A DNA stretch of 64,000 nt, taken from positions 3,278,501 to 3,342,500 of the forward strand of contig NZ_JACHIU010000001.1 of the NCBI RefSeq assembly GCF_014207705.1. The letters are read 5' to 3'. This DNA comes from Sphaerisporangium rubeum. GTDB lineage: Bacteria; Actinomycetota; Actinomycetes; Streptosporangiales; Streptosporangiaceae. The notes below the pieces were generated by a model. That model was not told the origin of the DNA and ran no database searches. It saw only the letters and a program-made list of their open reading frames with translations. Shown piece by piece: positions 199-59,480 of the stretch. How positions within the stretch are numbered: the first letter of the stretch is position 1; each line of letters begins with the position of its first letter. Made by a program: the position numbers and the translations under genes.

Positions 199-400
199 TA
201 CAGCCTTTACCTCCGCCGCGCGGATCACAAGAGGCGAAAGGCAAAAGTGCTGAGCGACGAGGAACCGGCCACGGAAACGGCCGGTCCCTGTCGGTCCCGT
301 CGCCCTTCCCTTACCCGTTGACCGGTTCCATCGCACCAGGTGGCCGCCGCGGCGGCCCGTCAGCGCGTCCGGCCGCGCGGTGGCCTACGATCAAAGCGCG

Positions 401-1000
401 ATGTTGAAGCTCCTGCGTCCCGCCGTCACCCGCGTGCTGACCCCGATCGGCCGGGCGCTGGCCCGGCGCGGCGTCAGCCCCGACGTCATCACCGCGATCG
501 GCACGCTCGGCGTCGCCGTGAGCGCACTGGTCCTCTACCCCCTCGGCCAGCTGTGGTGGGGGTCGGTGGCCGTCGCGGTGTTCGCGCTCGCCGACCTGCT
601 GGACGGCGTGCTGGCCCGCATGCTCGGCCCCGGCAGCACATGGGGGGCCTTCCTCGACTCCACCCTCGACCGCGTCGGCGACGCCGCGATCTTCTCCGGC
701 CTGATCCTGTACTTCATGGGCACCGGCGAGCGGCTGCTCGCGGGGGTCGCGCTGTTCTGCCTGGTCGCGGGGGCCGTGGTGTCGTATGCCAAGGCCAGGG
801 CCGAAGGGCTCGGGCTGACCTGCGACGTCGGGCTGGCCGAGCGGTCCGAGCGGCTGATGGTGGTGCTGGTGGCGGTCGGGCTGTCCGGGCTCGGCGTGCC
901 GTACATCCTGCCGGCGGGGCTGTGGCTGCTCGCCGCGGCCAGCGCGTTCACCGCCGGGCAGCGAATCCTTCACGTCTACCGTCAGACGGTGCCAACATGA
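401..1000 (+). CDS. pgsA: Phosphatidylinositol phosphate synthase (CDP-alcohol phosphatidyltransferase)
   Basis: 199-residue integral membrane enzyme that joins CDP-diacylglycerol to inositol-1-phosphate, giving the phosphatidylinositol phosphate on which PIMs are built. The complete CDP-alcohol phosphotransferase signature D-x2-DG-x2-AR-x8-G-x3-D-x3-D is present (D65, D68, G69, A72, R73, G82, D86, D90), between hydrophobic helices. I chose ATG 401 rather than the in-frame GTG 380 because a TACGAT -10 hexamer lies at 386-391, which would make the mRNA leaderless or nearly so. It is followed by patA and pimA, the next enzymes of the pathway. The family is certain; inositol-phosphate specificity rests on these neighbours, since PgsA-type glycerol-phosphate enzymes share the motif. 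Confidence 0.92.
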   Translation: MLKLLRPAVTRVLTPIGRALARRGVSPDVITAIGTLGVAVSALVLYPLGQLWWGSVAVAVFALADLLDGVLARMLGPGSTWGAFLDSTLDRVGDAAIFSGLILYFMGTGERLLAGVALFCLVAGAVVSYAKARAEGLGLTCDVGLAERSERLMVVLVAVGLSGLGVPYILPAGLWLLAAASAFTAGQRILHVYRQTVPT

Positions 1001-1077
1001 ACGTAAGACCGTGACGCCGTCGCGTCACCGATCGCCTCACCGTCCCTTCCACCTCGTCTCCCGGGGGTGACCTCGCG

Positions 1078-1980
1078 TTGTCCGACAGGCTCGTGGCCTG
1101 GGCCTACCACCTCGGCTGGGTGCTCGTGCCCAAGCTGCCCGAGCGGCTGGTCGCCTGGGCCTTCCGGTTCATCGCCGACGCGCTGTGGCGGCGGCGCGGC
1201 CGGTCCGTCCTGCGTCTGGAGTCCAACCTCGCACGGGTCACCGGCAAGGACGCCGGCGACCCGTCCGTACGCGACCTCAGCAGGGCCGGGCTGCGGTCCT
1301 ACTTCCGCTACTGGATGGAGGCGCTGCGCCTGCCGGTCATCGGCAAGGAACGCATCCTGACCGGCACCCGCGACATCGGCGGTCAGCAGATCTTCGACGC
1401 GGTGGACAGCGGACGCGGCATCGTGCTGGCCCTGCCCCACATGGGCAACTGGGACCTCGCGGGGGCCTGGCTCGTCCACAAGGGCTACCCGTTCACGACG
1501 GTCATGGAGCGGCTCAAGCCCGAGTCGCTGTTCGACCGGTTCGTGGCGTTCCGCGAGAGCCTCGGCATGGAGGTCCTGCCGCTCACCGCCAAAGGCGGCG
1601 GCACCGCGCACGCCTTCGGTGTGCTCGCGCGGCGGCTGCGCTCGGGCAAGGCCGTGTGCCTGCCGGCCGAGCGCGACCTCACCGAGCGCGGCGTGCAGGT
1701 CGACTTCTTCGGCGCCGCGACCCGCATGGTCGCCGGGCCCGCGCTGCTGTCCCTGCAGACCGGCGCGCCGCTGCACCCGGCCGGCATCTGGTTCGACGGC
1801 GACGGCTGGTTCATCAAGATCCACCCCGAGATCCCCATCCCCGCCGAGGGCTCACGTCAGGAGAAGATCGCCGTCATGACGCAGGCCATGGCTCGCGCCT
1901 TCGAGGAGAGCATCGCCGAGCACCCCGAGGACTGGCACATGCTCCAGCGCATCTGGCTCGACGACCTGGACCCGCGGTGA
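1078..1980 (+). CDS. patA: Phosphatidylinositol mannoside acyltransferase
   Basis: 300-residue member of the LpxL/HtrB-like lysophospholipid acyltransferases. In actinobacteria it transfers a palmitoyl group to the 6-position of the mannose of PIM1/PIM2 at the cytoplasmic membrane. The HX4D catalytic motif is visible as HMGNWD (H121, D126), and the later segment LPAERDLTERGVQ carries the conserved acidic residue seen in PatA-type enzymes. The start is TTG 1078, with a GGGGGTGA ribosome-binding site 8-10 nt upstream; no good ATG or GTG exists near it. It lies between pgsA and pimA with only 7 nt before pimA, so it is almost certainly co-transcribed with pimA. Function is inferred from family and context. 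Confidence 0.9.
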   Translation: MSDRLVAWAYHLGWVLVPKLPERLVAWAFRFIADALWRRRGRSVLRLESNLARVTGKDAGDPSVRDLSRAGLRSYFRYWMEALRLPVIGKERILTGTRDIGGQQIFDAVDSGRGIVLALPHMGNWDLAGAWLVHKGYPFTTVMERLKPESLFDRFVAFRESLGMEVLPLTAKGGGTAHAFGVLARRLRSGKAVCLPAERDLTERGVQVDFFGAATRMVAGPALLSLQTGAPLHPAGIWFDGDGWFIKIHPEIPIPAEGSRQEKIAVMTQAMARAFEESIAEHPEDWHMLQRIWLDDLDPR

Positions 1981-1987
1981 TCGCGCC

Positions 1988-3205
1988 ATGAGAGTGGGCA
2001 TGGTCTGCCCCTACTCCTGGGACGTCCCCGGAGGCGTCATGGCGCACGTCCGCGACCTGTCCGAGGCGCTCATCGAGGACGGCCACCAGGTGTCGGTCAT
2101 GGCCCCCGCCGCCGAGGACGCGCACCTGCCGTACTACGTCACCAGCGCCGGCCGTGCCGTCCCCGTGCCGTACAACGGGTCGGTGGCCCGGCTCGCCTTC
2201 GGGTTCCTGTCCGCGGGCCGGGTGCGGCGGTGGCTCGCCGAGGGACGGTTCGACGTGCTCCACGTGCACGAGCCGTCGGTGCCGTCGGTGGGCCTGCTGG
2301 CCTGCTGGGCCGCCGAGGGCCCCATCGTCGCGACGTTCCACGCGTCGTTCCCGCGCTCGCGCGCGCTGTCGGTGTCCGCGCCGGTGCTGCAGACCGCTCT
2401 GGAGAAGATCACCGGCCGGATCGCGGTGTCCGACGCGGCGCGCAAGACCCTGGTGGAGCACATCGGCGGGGACGCCGTGCTGATCCCCAACGGCGTCACC
2501 GTGGGCCGGTACGCCGAGGCCGAGCCGCTCGAGGGGTGGGGGCCGGACGGCGGCGTGATCGGCTTCCTCGGCCGCATGGACGAGCCGCGCAAGGGCCTGC
2601 CGGTGCTGCTCGACGCGTTCACCCGGCTCGCCCCCGAGCGTCCGGGCCTGCGGCTTCTCGTCGCCGGCCCCGGCGACGCCGGCGAGGTCCTCGGCAAGGT
2701 CCCCGCGGCGCTGCGCGACCGCGTCGGCGTGCTCGGCATGGTCAGCGAGGAGGACAAGGTCCGCGCCTACCACTCGGTCGACGTGTTCTGCGCACCCAAC
2801 ACCGGCGGCGAGAGCTTCGGCATCGTCCTCGCCGAGGCCATGGCCGCCGGCGCCGCGATCCTCGCCAGCGACATCCCCGCCTTCCGCAAGGTCCTCGGCG
2901 ACGGCGCCGCCGGCGCGCTGTTCACCACCGGCGACCCGGCGTCCCTCGCCGAAGGCGCCGCCGCGCTCCTCGACGACCCCGCGCGCCGCGCCGGCCTGTC
3001 GGAGCAGGCACGCCAGGCGGTGCGCGCGTACGACTGGTCCACCGTGGCCCGCGACGTCGTGCGGGTCTACGAGACCGTCACCGAGGGCACCACCGGCGTG
3101 GTCGCCGACGAGGCCCCCCGCGGCCGCGAGGGCTCCGGCTGGCTCGCCGGCACCGGCGCACGCGTCCGCGACACCGTCCGTTCCCGCCTCGGCGGCGCTC
3201 CGTGA
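1988..3205 (+). CDS. pimA: Phosphatidylinositol alpha-mannosyltransferase (GT4)
   Basis: 405-residue GT-B glycosyltransferase that puts the first mannose from GDP-mannose on phosphatidylinositol at the inner face of the membrane. It shows the GGV loop near residue 15, H118 in TFHAS (a residue position also known as important in mycobacterial PimA), R196 and K202 in GRMDEPRKG, and the GT4 E-x7-E motif ESFGIVLAE (E275, E283). It starts 7 nt after patA. The C-terminal 30 residues are basic and low in complexity. The stop codon TGA 3203-3205 is overlapped by GTG 3202, the first of two tiny coupled reading frames described separately. Confidence 0.93.
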   Translation: MRVGMVCPYSWDVPGGVMAHVRDLSEALIEDGHQVSVMAPAAEDAHLPYYVTSAGRAVPVPYNGSVARLAFGFLSAGRVRRWLAEGRFDVLHVHEPSVPSVGLLACWAAEGPIVATFHASFPRSRALSVSAPVLQTALEKITGRIAVSDAARKTLVEHIGGDAVLIPNGVTVGRYAEAEPLEGWGPDGGVIGFLGRMDEPRKGLPVLLDAFTRLAPERPGLRLLVAGPGDAGEVLGKVPAALRDRVGVLGMVSEEDKVRAYHSVDVFCAPNTGGESFGIVLAEAMAAGAAILASDIPAFRKVLGDGAAGALFTTGDPASLAEGAAALLDDPARRAGLSEQARQAVRAYDWSTVARDVVRVYETVTEGTTGVVADEAPRGREGSGWLAGTGARVRDTVRSRLGGAP

Positions 3206-3261
3206 CCACCAGCGTGATCCCGCCGATCTCCGTCCGCTCCCGTCAGGGTGACGCCACATGA
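3202..3261 (+). CDS. 19-residue coupled micro-ORF 1 (first 56-bp repeat copy)
   Basis: Reads MTTSVIPPISVRSRQGDAT from GTG 3202. The start overlaps the pimA stop (GTGA) and its own stop TGA 3259-3261 overlaps the ATG of the next micro-ORF (ATGA). The sequence is one copy of a 56-bp repeat whose third copy is the start of the LemA-like gene. There is no known homologue that I recognise. It may work only as a translational relay or spacer rather than as a peptide. Expression is unproven. Confidence 0.4.
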   Translation: MTTSVIPPISVRSRQGDAT

Positions 3262-3317
3262 CCACCCCCGTGGTCGCACCCGTCACCTTCCGCTCCTGTC
3301 TCGGTGCCGCCACATGA
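3258..3317 (+). CDS. 19-residue coupled micro-ORF 2 (second 56-bp repeat copy)
   Basis: Reads MTTPVVAPVTFRSCLGAAT from ATG 3258. Both ends form ATGA overlaps: with micro-ORF 1 upstream and with ATG 3314 of the LemA-like gene downstream. The first four residues, MTTP, equal those of the downstream protein, as expected for a duplication of its start. The segment before this ATG (CAGGGTGACGCCAC) is a better ribosome-binding context than the one before 3314 (CTCGGTGCCGCCAC), so ribosomes may load here and be passed on. Coding status is an inference from geometry. Confidence 0.4.
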   Translation: MTTPVVAPVTFRSCLGAAT

Positions 3318-3856
3318 CCACCCCCATGATCCTGCTGGCCGCCGGCCTCGCCGCCGTGCTGCTCGCCGTGTACATCTCCTGGCGGGCCGGACGGCTCGAT
3401 CGCCTGCACATCCGCCTGGAGAGCGCACGAGAAGCCCTGGACGCCGCGCTGCTGCGCCGCGCGGCGGTCTGCATGGAACTGGCCGCGTCCCGGGTCCTCG
3501 ACCCCGCGACCAGCCTCCTGCTCGCCGCCGCCACCCACGAGGCGCGGACCGCGGGCCCCGACGAGCGTGAGCACGCCGAGAGCGACCTGTCCCGCGCGCT
3601 GCGTGCCGTCGTGGACCAGGACCGCTTCAGGGAACGACTCGCCGAGACCCCGGCGGGACCGGAGCTCCTGGCCGAACTCGACTCGGCCGTCACCAAGGTC
3701 ATCTACTCCCGCCGCTTCTACAACAACGCCGTCGGCGTCACCCGCCAGGCCCAGCGCCGCTGGCTGGCCCGCACCCTCCGCCTCGCCGGCCACACCGAGT
3801 ACCCGTCCTACTTCGAGATCGACGACGCCGAACCCACGACCTTCGCCGACCGCTGA
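3314..3856 (+). CDS. Small membrane-anchored LemA-like protein, function unknown
   Basis: 180 residues: an N-terminal transmembrane helix (about residues 4-20, ILLAAGLAAVLLAV), then a mostly helical cytosolic or peripheral domain. Near residues 127-140 it reads SRRFYNNAV, which resembles the R-x-x-YN/FYN segment of LemA-family helical-bundle proteins. Its position right after pimA is conserved in my memory of Streptomyces. I chose ATG 3314; an in-frame upstream start at 3248 would add 22 residues that read through repeat sequence. It is linked to pimA through two micro-ORFs with stop-start overlaps. No enzymatic motif is visible and its role is unknown. Confidence 0.75.
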   Translation: MTTPMILLAAGLAAVLLAVYISWRAGRLDRLHIRLESAREALDAALLRRAAVCMELAASRVLDPATSLLLAAATHEARTAGPDEREHAESDLSRALRAVVDQDRFRERLAETPAGPELLAELDSAVTKVIYSRRFYNNAVGVTRQAQRRWLARTLRLAGHTEYPSYFEIDDAEPTTFADR

Positions 3857-9585: not shown

Positions 9586-9744
9586 TCCCCCGCCGGTGAG
9601 CCGACGGCCGGTGATCCGACGGCCGACGACCCGGCCGCCGGTGAGCCGACGGCCGGTGAGTCGACGACTGGTGAGCCGATCGCCGACGATCCGGCCGCCG
9701 ACGATCCGGCCGCCGACGATCCGGCCGCCGGTGAGCCGGCGCCG
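9581..9744 (+). repeat. 15-bp tandem repeat array directly after the pdxS stop
   Basis: Ten 15-bp units run from 9595 to 9744, of types GGTGAGCCGACGGCC and GACGATCCGGCCGCC (three identical copies of the latter at 9685-9729). A 14-nt half-matching unit starts at 9581 and includes the pdxS stop. Degenerate remains continue to about 9777. In the pdxS frame the units read G-E/D-P-T/A-A pentapeptides up to a TGA at about 9775. The remaining gap to 9958 contains no further gene that I can see. Confidence 0.9.
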
Positions 9745-9958
9745 ATGACCTGGCCGCCGGCGACGCACCTCCGGTGACACGGCGTCACCGGAGGCGTCGT
9801 CCGGGCCGGTGACGCACCGCCGCGTGCGGCGGTCCCGGCCCGGTCTTGCCGGACATTCCCGGCATTCTCGAAAACATGGGGTTATCGTCCGTAAATACCC
9901 TCAGTGAGCTGGGTGTTGCTATACCTGGGGTTTGCGGTAGGTAGTCGATGATCGTGAT

Positions 9959-20931: not shown

Positions 20932-23280
20932 GTGCCCCGTGACATGACCGTTCCCGGCGTGGCCGACACCCCAGAGCCGGTTTCCACGCCGGCGGGCGAC
21001 GCGGGTACGGCCATGTCCGCGAGCACGGAGGAGAAACCGGCGCCTGCCGTACGCCGCAGGTTGTCCCGGTTCGGGGGCCAGTGGGGTGGCGCGATGAATC
21101 CGGTTCTGGAACCACTGTTCAAGACGGTCCGTGCCACACACCCGAAGGCGGACCTACGGCTGATCGAGCGGGCCTACGACGTCGCGGCCTTCCACCACCG
21201 CGACCAGAAGCGCAAGAGCGGCGACCCCTACATCACCCATCCCCTCGCGGTCGCCACCATCCTCGCCGAGCTCGGCACCGACGACGAGACGCTGTGCGCC
21301 GCACTGCTCCACGACACCGTCGAGGACACCGCCTACGGCCTGGACGAGCTCGGCAAGGACTTCGGCGACAACATCGCGCTGCTGGTCGACGGCGTCACCA
21401 AGCTGGACAAGGTCAAGTTCGGTGACGCCGCGCAGGCCGAGACCGTGCGCAAGATGGTCGTCGCGATGTCCCGCGACATCCGGGTGCTGGTCATCAAGCT
21501 CGCCGACCGGCTGCACAACATGCGCACCCTGCGCTACCTGCCGCGGCACAAGCAGGAGCAGAAGGCCCGTGAGACGCTGGAGATCTTCGCGCCGCTGGCC
21601 CACCGGCTCGGCATGAACACCATCAAGTGGGAGCTCGAGGACCTCGCGTTCGGCATGCTCTACCCCAAGCGGTACGACGAGATCGCGCGCATGGTGTCCG
21701 AGCGCGCCCCACGCCGCGACCTGTTCCTGCAGGAGGTCATCGAGAAGGTCGCCGCCGACCTGCGCGAGGCCAAGATCAGGGCCGCGGTGAAGGGCCGTCC
21801 CAAGCACTACTACTCGATCTACCAGAAGATGATCGCGCGCGAGGTCGCGTTCGACGACATCTACGACCTGGTCGGCATCAGGGTGCTGGTCGACACGGTC
21901 CGCGACTGCTACGCGGCACTCGGCACCATCCACGCGCGGTGGAACCCGGTCCCCGGCCGGTTCAAGGACTACATCGCGATGCCGAAGTTCAACATGTACC
22001 AGTCGCTGCACACCACGGTCATCGGACCCGAGGGCAAGCCGGTCGAGCTGCAGATCCGCACCCGCGCCATGCACCACCGCGCCGAGTACGGCGTCGCCGC
22101 GCACTGGAAGTACAAAGAGGAGATGGGGGCCAGCGGCCCGGCCGGCGCGCGCATGAAGGCCGCCGGCGACATGGCGTGGCTGCGCCAGCTCCTCGACTGG
22201 CAGAAGGAGACGTCCGACCCGGGGGAGTTCCTGGAGTCGCTGCGGTTCGACCTCTCGGTGTCGGAGGTCTTCGTCTTCACCCCGCGCGGCCAGGTGATCG
22301 CACTGCCGGAAGGCGCCACACCGGTCGACTTCGCCTACGCCGTGCACACCGAGGTCGGCCACCGGTGCATCGGCGCGCGCGTGAACGGCCGCCTGGTGCC
22401 GCTGGAGTCGCGGCTGAGCAACGGCGACGCGGTCGAGATCTTCACGTCCAAGTCGCCGGACGCCGGGCCGTCCCGCGACTGGCTGAAGTTCGTCAAGAGC
22501 GGCCGGGCCCGCAACAAGATCCGGCAGTGGTTCTCCAAGGAGCGCCGCGAGACCGCGATCGAGGCCGGCAAGGAGGCCATCGGCCGCGCCATGCGCAAGC
22601 AGGGCCTGCCGTTGCAGCGCCTGATGTCCGGAGAGAGCCTCCTGGCGCTCGCCAGGGACCTGCGCTACCCCGACGTCTCGGCGCTGTACGCGGCCGTCGG
22701 AGAGGGCCACACAGGGGCTCAGTCGGTCGTCGAGAAGCTCGTGCAGTCACTCGGCGGCGTCGAAGGCGCCGAGGAGGACATCGCCGAGGCCGCCGTCCCC
22801 ACCCGCCTGCGCGGCCGCCCCCGCAGCGGCACCAACGCCGGCGTGATCGTCGCCGGCGACTCCGACGTGTGGGTGCGCCTGTCCCGCTGCTGCACCCCCG
22901 TCCCGGGAGACGCCATCGTCGGTTTCGTCACCCGCGGCCACGGCGTGTCGGTACACCGCGACAACTGCCCCAACATCGAGCAACTACGCACCGAACCCGA
23001 CCGCCTGGTCGAGGTCACCTGGTCGCCGAGCGACGACTCGGTGTTCCTCGTCGCCATCCAGGTCGAGGCCCTCGACCGCCCCCGCCTGCTGTCCGACGTG
23101 ACCCGCACGCTGTCCGACCAGCACGTCAACATCTTGTCGGCCTCGGTGACCACCGCACGTGACCGCACCGCCGTCAGCAAGTTCACCTTCGAGATGGGTG
23201 ACCCGAAACACCTCGGCCACGTCCTGAAGGCCGTACGCAACATCCCCGGCGTCTACGACGTCTACCGCGTGACCAACTGA
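20932..23280 (+). CDS. relA: Bifunctional (p)ppGpp synthetase/hydrolase
   Basis: 782 residues, long-form RSH protein. In order: HD hydrolase domain ([20 protein letters not shown], about residues 85-230), synthetase domain ([39 protein letters not shown]), TGS domain ([27 protein letters not shown]), a zinc-finger/RIS segment ([12 protein letters not shown]) and a C-terminal ACT domain ending [14 protein letters not shown] residues are intact, so hydrolysis is expected too. Start GTG 20932 has GGGAG 6 nt upstream and TACACT at 20894-20899 as a likely -10. Its last 66 bp are repeated twice after the stop. Confidence 0.96.
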
Positions 23281-23412
23281 CCTCCGGTTCTGCGGGTCGT
23301 GCGCGATATCCCGGGTGTGTGTGAGGTCTACCGTGTGACGGGCTGGCCTTTGGTCTTGAGGGTGGTGGGGATATCCCGGGTGCGTACGACGTCTACCGCC
23401 TGACCAACTGTC
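23221..23412 (+). repeat. Three 66-bp copies of the relA 3' end
   Basis: Copy 1 (23221) encodes the last codons of relA ([19 protein letters not shown]). Copy 2 starts at 23287 and reads VLRVVRDIPGVCEVYRVTG in the same frame. Copy 3 starts at 23353 and has one base deleted; after correcting for it, it reads GDIPGAYDVYRLTN. Many differences between copies are at third codon positions. Confidence 0.9.
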
Positions 23413-57202: not shown

Positions 57203-58270
<1,068 letters not shown>

Positions 58271-58328
58271 GTGTGTCCCGTCCCGACACGGAAACCGTCC
58301 CTCTCACGCTCTCCGGCGGTGGTCGCGC

Positions 58329-59480
58329 ATGAGCGTCACCGCCCCTCTCGGGTTCCGCGCGGCCGGCGTCCCGGCCGGCCTGAAGTCCGGCGGAGCCCGC
58401 GACATCGCCCTCGTCGTCAACGACGGCCCGTCCCGCGCCGCGGCCGGGGTCTTCACCCGCAACCGCGTCAAAGCGGCCCCGGTGCTGTGGTCGGAGCAGG
58501 TCCTCACCGGCGGCCGCGTCAGGGCCGTCGTGCTCAACTCCGGCGGCGCCAACGCCTGCACCGGCCCCGCCGGTTTCCAGGACACCCACGCCACCGCGGA
58601 GAAGGTCGCCGCGCTGCTCGACGACTCGGCCGGCGAGATCGCCGTCTGCTCCACCGGCCTCATCGGTGAGCGCCTCCCCATGGAGGCGCTGCTCGCCGGG
58701 GTCGACGAGGCCGCCGGAAGCCTCAGCAGGGACGGCGGTCTCGCCGCCGCCGACGCCATCCGCACCACCGACACCGTCACCAAGATCGCCTTCAGGCGCG
58801 GCACCGGCTACATGGTCGGCGGCATGGCCAAAGGCGCCGGCATGCTGGCCCCCGCCATGGCCACCATGCTCAGCGTGATCACCACCGACGCCGACGTGAC
58901 CGCCGACGAGCTCGACCGCGTGCTGCGCCGCGCCGTCGCGGTCACCTTCGACCGGCTCGACACCGACGGCTGCATGTCGACCAACGACACCGTGCTGCTG
59001 CTCGCCAGCGGCGCGGCGGGGGTCGAGCCGGACGCCGGCGAGTTCGAGAAACGCGTCACCGAGGTCTGCGCCGACCTCGCCAGGCAACTGCTCGTGGACG
59101 CCGAAGGCGCCACCAAGGCCATCGCCATCGAGGTCGTCGGCGCCGCGCACGAGGAGGACGCCGTGAAGGTCGGCCGCGCCGTCGCGCGGTCCAACCTGCT
59201 CAAGTGCGCCATCCACGGCGAGGACCCGAACTGGGGCCGGGTCCTGTCGGCCGTCGGCACCACCGACGCCGTGTTCGAGCCCGACCGCCTCAACGTCGCC
59301 GTCAACGGCATCTGGGTGTGCAGGGCCGGCGCCGCCGGGGACGACCGCTCCAAGGTCGACCTGCGTCCCCGAGACGTCACCATCACCATCGACCTGTCGG
59401 CCGGCACGCGCTCGGCGACCGTGCACACCACCGACCTCACCGCCGACTACGTCCACGAGAACTCGGCGTACTCGACATGA
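58329..59480 (+). CDS. argJ: Bifunctional ornithine acetyltransferase/N-acetylglutamate synthase
   Basis: 383 residues. Recycles the acetyl group from N-acetylornithine to glutamate. The autocleavage site is [14 protein letters not shown], with nucleophile Thr179, which becomes the N-terminus of the beta chain. [12 protein letters not shown] and [10 protein letters not shown] are conserved. Start ATG 58329. Overlaps argB by ATGA. Confidence 0.96.

Follow-up and report, generated by a model that had tools for sequence, protein, structure and literature searches.

Inserts between pimA and the next gene of an actinobacterial operon mostly form linked micro-ORFs with overlapping stop and start codons

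The junction between pimA and the following gene in Sphaerisporangium rubeum carries a 56-bp tandem repeat that is read as two linked micro-ORFs, and most inserts found at the same junction in relatives have a similar layout. Among the matches listed, 37 of 152 distinct junctions bear an insert; 34 of these are strict relays, in which each stop codon overlaps the next start codon (26 with one micro-ORF and 8 with two), and 3 are broken. It suggests that inserts at this junction tend to survive when the path of ribosomes to the second gene stays unbroken. The 56-bp duplication was probably near-neutral, and would have been kept since it preserves termination-reinitiation into the downstream gene.

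The window, which means the whole analysed stretch of 64,000 nucleotides, contains the genes and junctions listed in Table 1. Direct reading of the sequence confirmed the layout given in a preliminary description of this DNA: three start codons lie 56 bp apart (GTG 3202, ATG 3258 and ATG 3314), they open two frames of 19 residues and then the downstream gene, and each TGA from pimA to micro-ORF 2 overlaps the following start codon. The 56-bp unit is composed of the pimA tail (VRSRLGGAP and stop) joined to the first codons of the following gene (MTTPM), and the C-terminal tail of the pimA-like protein is the source of its second half. Identity at lag 56 over positions 3160-3276 was 0.69, while lags of 15-149 gave a mean of 0.316 (s.d. 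0.058), and within the whole window this score was exceeded only by a repeat array at about 9.6 kb. The inner two units are identical at 42 of 56 positions. The repeat is not due to chance. A search of the 7.5 Mb genome for dispersed copies returned, besides the unit itself, only weak partial similarity at two places (35 and 27 bp), so a dispersed mobile repeat was ruled out as its origin; judged from its sequence, the unit is a local duplication. Two other repeats were observed in the window. One is a period-66 tandem repeat of 2.4 copies at 23254-23410, which by eye seemingly repeats the end of an ORF (YDVYRVTN and stop) past its stop, and the other is a strong 15/30-bp array at 9590-9763, perhaps encoding a repetitive linker.

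Table 1. Genes, micro-ORFs, overlaps and repeat array at the operon junctions of the window
Feature	Position	Strand	Evidence
PIP synthase	380-1000		above NCBIfam cut-off
Near-relay between PIP synthase and acyltransferase: ATG 997 (MNVRP and stop), then GTG 1011 opening a 19-residue frame with stop TGA 1068-1070	997..1070	+	
PIM acyltransferase	~1078 to 1980		above NCBIfam cut-off
4-residue micro-ORF (VIAP) from acyltransferase stop to pimA ATG 1988, with GTGA and ATGA overlaps	1977..1991	+	
pimA-like glycosyltransferase	1988..3205	+	Pfam glycosyltransferase domains
Tandem array, period 56, 2.9 copies, 75% matches, across pimA stop and next start	3172..3332	+	Tandem Repeats Finder
GTGA overlap of pimA stop (TGA 3203-3205) and micro-ORF 1 start (GTG 3202)	3202..3205	+	sequence read
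Micro-ORF 1, 19 residues, MTTSVIPPISVRSRQGDAT and stop	3202..3261	+	sequence read, junction comparison
ATGA overlap of micro-ORF 1 stop (TGA 3259-3261) and micro-ORF 2 start (ATG 3258)	3258..3261	+	
Micro-ORF 2, 19 residues, MTTPVVAPVTFRSCLGAAT and stop	3258..3317	+	sequence read, junction comparison
ATGA overlap of micro-ORF 2 stop (TGA 3315-3317) and downstream start (ATG 3314)	3314..3317	+	
Downstream gene, 180 residues, single N-terminal hydrophobic stretch (by eye), weak LemA similarity	3314..3856	+	

The glycosyltransferase at 1988-3205 is called pimA from its gene context. The protein encoded downstream (3314-3856) had no Pfam match at E 0.001. It had been labelled LemA-like, and this label holds as a weak similarity: the window protein matched Pfam LemA at E 0.018 with 15.3 bits, below the gathering score of 26.2, and 11 of 14 members of an alignment matched LemA at E up to 5 (best 0.0055), so that all Pfam matches stay under the threshold. 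At the PIP synthase/acyltransferase junction the TTG start of the acyltransferase (1078) lies seven bases beyond the last stop of the near-relay (window 997-1078), and a complete one-step relay was seen at the same junction in L003 and L005. Relay-like junctions were also observed at 58268-58329 on the forward strand (21 residues) and at 55377-55335 on the reverse strand (3 and 12 residues); this window-wide look-up was a simple scan, with 10 direct overlaps in the same window.

When two genes overlap by 4 bp, their frames differ by one. A tandem copy spanning such an overlap gives a bridging ORF if its length is 2 modulo 3, wherever its ends fall. Duplications of 20-130 bp, with lengths taken as uniform, were simulated across 97 real direct junctions. 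They produced a relay in 99.2% of cases when the length was 2 modulo 3, an N-terminal extension in 92.7% when it was 0 modulo 3, and neither in 79.7% when it was 1 modulo 3; over all lengths the fractions were 0.377 for relay, 0.338 for extension and 0.285 for neither. Shuffled inserts trimmed by 0-2 bases gave a relay in 0.302. The stop-start layout alone is unremarkable, with about a one-in-three chance given a duplication. The earlier argument, in which the unit could arise only by cuts at two successive overlaps, is wrong, because a period of 2 modulo 3 gives the layout in about 99% of simulations.

For the junction survey we took the best 80 of 86 loci and loci from further genomes among the matches listed. 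This gave 236 sequences including the window, five of which were dropped as either gene was missing, and the remaining 231 were reduced to the 152 distinct junctions. A junction was called insert-bearing with at least 9 bp from stop to start, and the script defined a strict relay as a -4 or -1 overlap at every step. The commonest state among the matches listed was the plain 4-bp overlap (101 of 152), a TGATG-type overlap was found in 6, and the remaining 8 had neither an insert of at least 9 bp nor a strict overlap. The insert spacings ranged from 11 to 125 bp, and frames were open throughout in 34 of the 37. None of the 37 extended the N-terminus of the downstream protein, whereas about a third would be expected to do so; at direct junctions this N-terminus was at most 9 bases longer than that of the window. 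In L042 and L045 (NZ_LAVL01000139.1) the locus is inverted at both ends of one Nonomuraea contig, which is perhaps an assembly palindrome.

The excess of relays had a tip-level binomial probability of 8e-12 against a null of about 0.38, the tips being related by descent. On a FastTree phylogeny built from both proteins the relay label requires 18 changes, at least 10 of them forced by well supported branches. By Fitch parsimony relays were gained about 15 times and lost 3 times, and non-relay inserts were gained twice. The relay was kept through insert lengths of 44, 62 and 68 in Microbispora, of 68, 116 and 125 in Planobispora and of 35, 56, 62, 100 and 112 in Sphaerisporangium. One Nonomuraea clade likewise kept it with 35, 53, 59 and 71 bp holding one frame and 70 bp holding two, and the 71-bp insert resembles a fusion of two frames. 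In L014 a 38-bp unit is present twice, although the plain overlap is found in L018 and L019, which are closely related to it. The preliminary description had pointed to copy number and the 56-bp period as features to compare; both length and copy number vary among relatives, and what stays is the stop-start linkage, in 34 of 37. Inserts that break the overlaps, named there as evidence against coupling, do occur, in 3 of 37 only, from two lineages (L011; L044 and its close kin L158). The idea that coupling is the preserved property is supported by these 34 relays and by the ratio of about 15 relay to 2 non-relay gains. The micro-ORF peptides differ among close relatives in sequence, length (4-42 residues) and number (0-2). 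It means that conservation concerns the frame together with its end overlaps.

These observations can be put together as follows. The ancestral 4-bp overlap of pimA and the next gene was duplicated in tandem by 56 bp, in one or two rounds, as the repeat anatomy and the prevalence of this overlap in relatives show. This produced two additional copies of the stop-start junction. With a period of 2 modulo 3 and open frames, the added sequence forms two micro-ORFs, joined at their ends by the same kind of overlap as in the original junction. Ribosomes finishing pimA would then be handed on at 3202, 3258 and 3314 by termination-reinitiation, and the peptides may be by-products. Frame statistics suggest that overlap-breaking lengths would uncouple the downstream gene and that lengths of 0 modulo 3 would extend the hydrophobic N-terminus of its protein; the window insert and the about 15 gains in the family may have been retained for avoiding both outcomes. 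According to the available part of one report, hardly any reinitiation is left in native coupled pairs once the spacing reaches about 20 nt, and 38 nt cuts coupling by 80-100% in E. coli (PMC10666635). With spacings of 11-125 bp, most inserts would therefore uncouple the genes unless bridged. Shine-Dalgarno pairing at the three window starts is weak (-5.0, -6.9 and -5.3 kcal/mol at 3202, 3258 and 3314), where direct junctions averaged -9.6 and random sites -4.5 kcal/mol, so these starts would depend on ribosomes coming from upstream. Relay-final starts of relatives have good pairing, with a mean of -10.0 kcal/mol, so independent initiation would be possible there.

Neutral duplication could also give the window junction, with the right period by luck, the relay unselected and the downstream gene initiating alone. 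About a third of random duplications yield such a layout, which makes the window case alone unremarkable, and the repeat is decayed (75% matches) with unconserved peptides. However, we consider this unlikely, because 34 of 37 inserts are relays against 0.30-0.38 expected, extensions are missing from all 37, 15 of 17 inferred gains are relays and the Shine-Dalgarno sequence at 3314 is weak. Another role of the micro-ORFs may be to keep the mRNA covered with ribosomes and avoid Rho-dependent termination or decay, the exact overlap being incidental. The open frames of the 34 inserts agree with it, but an in-frame extension would cover the mRNA equally and occurs in 0 of 37 against about a third expected, which points to a protected N-terminus and not mere mRNA coverage. 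All steps of the 34 relays have a -4 or -1 overlap, by definition, and the spacings are just 11-125 bp, so coverage is a very unlikely explanation.

The preliminary description proposed that the short frames set the ratio or timing of both proteins, as leader peptides or functional microproteins would do. Their place between coupled genes is suitable for it, and bacterial short ORFs acting on the next gene are known. But sequence, length and number vary among close relatives as given above, and direct junctions are the commonest state. Such free variation of copy number and peptide sequence speaks against any tuned or coded function, and this role is highly improbable. A conserved microprotein was ruled out by the same differences. 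We prefer serial termination-reinitiation across the micro-ORFs as the reading of the junction.

For the origin of the inserts, 36 inserts of at least 20 bp were compared with their own pimA tail, using z scores against mononucleotide shuffles and a threshold of z above 4. A local copy of the pimA tail was detectable in 12 of 36, all in relays; no local source was found at this threshold for the other 24, including the window insert (z 3.6), whose array is clear by the lag test. A local origin for all inserts was thus rejected, being seen at z above 4 in 12 of 36 only. The Planobispora insert belongs to a dispersed element, for which four genomes gave 16, 14, 7 and 6 matches (E up to 0.001), with many partial ones among them. 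It is about 68-72 bp long, has GTGA at both ends and carries a 23-residue micro-ORF encoding about VSERSERAMDTAVSRTRPTEEGA, with the Shine-Dalgarno-like GGAGGAGG close to its end (loci L297-L316; L017:2864-2990). We examined 19 of the 43 matches. In 11 the element links two long frames through one or two micro-ORFs that overlap at either end; this number includes the pimA junction three times and one site shared by two species, counted twice. The other 8 do not bridge under the simple rules of the script. An insert between acyltransferase and pimA in Streptosporangium is likewise dispersed, in 3 of 4 genomes searched. Between PIP synthase and acyltransferase, L008 (in two 68-bp copies) and L009 carry a tail (TEE) similar to that of the Planobispora element.

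Huber et al. in 2019 (PMC6728339) reportedly described pairs of genes that are coupled by termination-reinitiation. Short ORFs lying between genes are said to assist or gate the gene after them in two cases, an sORF before a Salmonella Mg2+ transporter and a minigene in axe-txe. Both resemble the present frames in that a short frame between genes, translated in those cases, affects the next gene, as it may do here; they are single elements described as regulators, whereas the frames here are recurrent and free in peptide sequence. Termination-reinitiation pairs with -4 or -1 nt overlaps are treated in the available parts of Huber et al. 2023 (PMC10666635) and Brown and Wade 2025 (PMC12548453). 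The window junction has three -4 overlaps. Like coupled pairs, the relays have an ATGA/GTGA or TGATG overlap per step on one strand, and extra spacing is expected to uncouple them. Unlike those pairs, one to four micro-ORFs are interposed here, each with its own overlap pair, and they arise repeatedly, partly via local duplication.

The mycobacterial interspersed repetitive unit (MIRU; Supply et al. 1997) is a mobile repeat that, on insertion, brings its ORF into -4 nt coupling with the gene at that site, as stated in the available part of PMC12548453, and it is the nearest natural precedent found in the parts of the sources consulted. The 56-bp unit has the same architecture, an ORF with an overlap at either end, but was made from its own junction and shows no dispersal in its own genome; the Planobispora element agrees in both architecture and dispersal and is a nearer match. 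MIRUs can be tandem. In synthetic bicistronic design a short ORF brings the ribosome to a coupled start (PMC12548453, available part); that system is engineered, while the relay here is natural and recurrent. No description of recurrent local duplications giving stop-start relays was found in the literature searched.

The survival of inserts between coupled genes is a natural mutational experiment, which reveals where coupling is indispensable. If our reading is true, one class of short ORFs that lie between operon genes and lack conservation would be ribosome bridges and not microproteins. It would also predict serial reinitiation at a measurable level, and so has a bearing on the way in which ribosomes find the next start after termination. 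We tentatively suggest a wider picture, for which we would claim somewhat less than an even chance: at indispensably coupled junctions of high-GC actinobacteria, local duplications or mobile ORF cassettes may persist as chains of linked micro-ORFs, operons may carry passive relays of up to four links, and mobile elements may have evolved to exploit these harmless landing sites.

At the acyltransferase-pimA junction (151 junctions), 41 had inserts: 28 relays, 5 extensions and 8 neither. Parsimony gave 16 gains, about 8 relay, 5 extension and 3 other, which is not beyond the null. As an independent replicate this junction was rejected and counted as partial, being significant by tips and not by inferred events. 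L146 has here the longest complete chain among the PIM operon junctions, in which VRT is linked to three identical MRISA frames that come from a 14-bp repeat, making four micro-ORFs in all, and L133 has two frames of 30 residues.

Cell-wall genes were compared in 60 cluster regions, where murG alone was identified by a family model; the other genes are presumably those named from gene order. At murG-murC, in agreement with the junction after pimA, a relay was found in 9 of 10 insert-bearing junctions, 4 of these 9 being from near kin, and at ftsI-murE in 11 of 16, where the usual start is uncertain and based on five rows. Relays were found in 7 of 31 insert-bearing junctions at murE-murF, 2 of 23 at murD-ftsW, 8 of 37 at ftsW-murG, 8 of 40 at murC-ftsQ and 0 of 3 after ftsZ; ftsQ-ftsZ, which has a long spacer, gave 0 of 58. 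The mraY step gave no usable rows. Several cell-wall junctions tolerate non-relay spacers, so a universal rule for every overlapping junction was rejected; the relay rule is junction-specific and true of some coupled junctions only. Some of the non-relay spacers have, by eye, a purine-rich Shine-Dalgarno-like stretch ahead of the start. In the cell-wall cluster L262-L264 have two linked micro-ORFs and L265 has a single longer ORF with the chain unbroken, apparently a fusion of the micro-ORFs through a one-base insertion.
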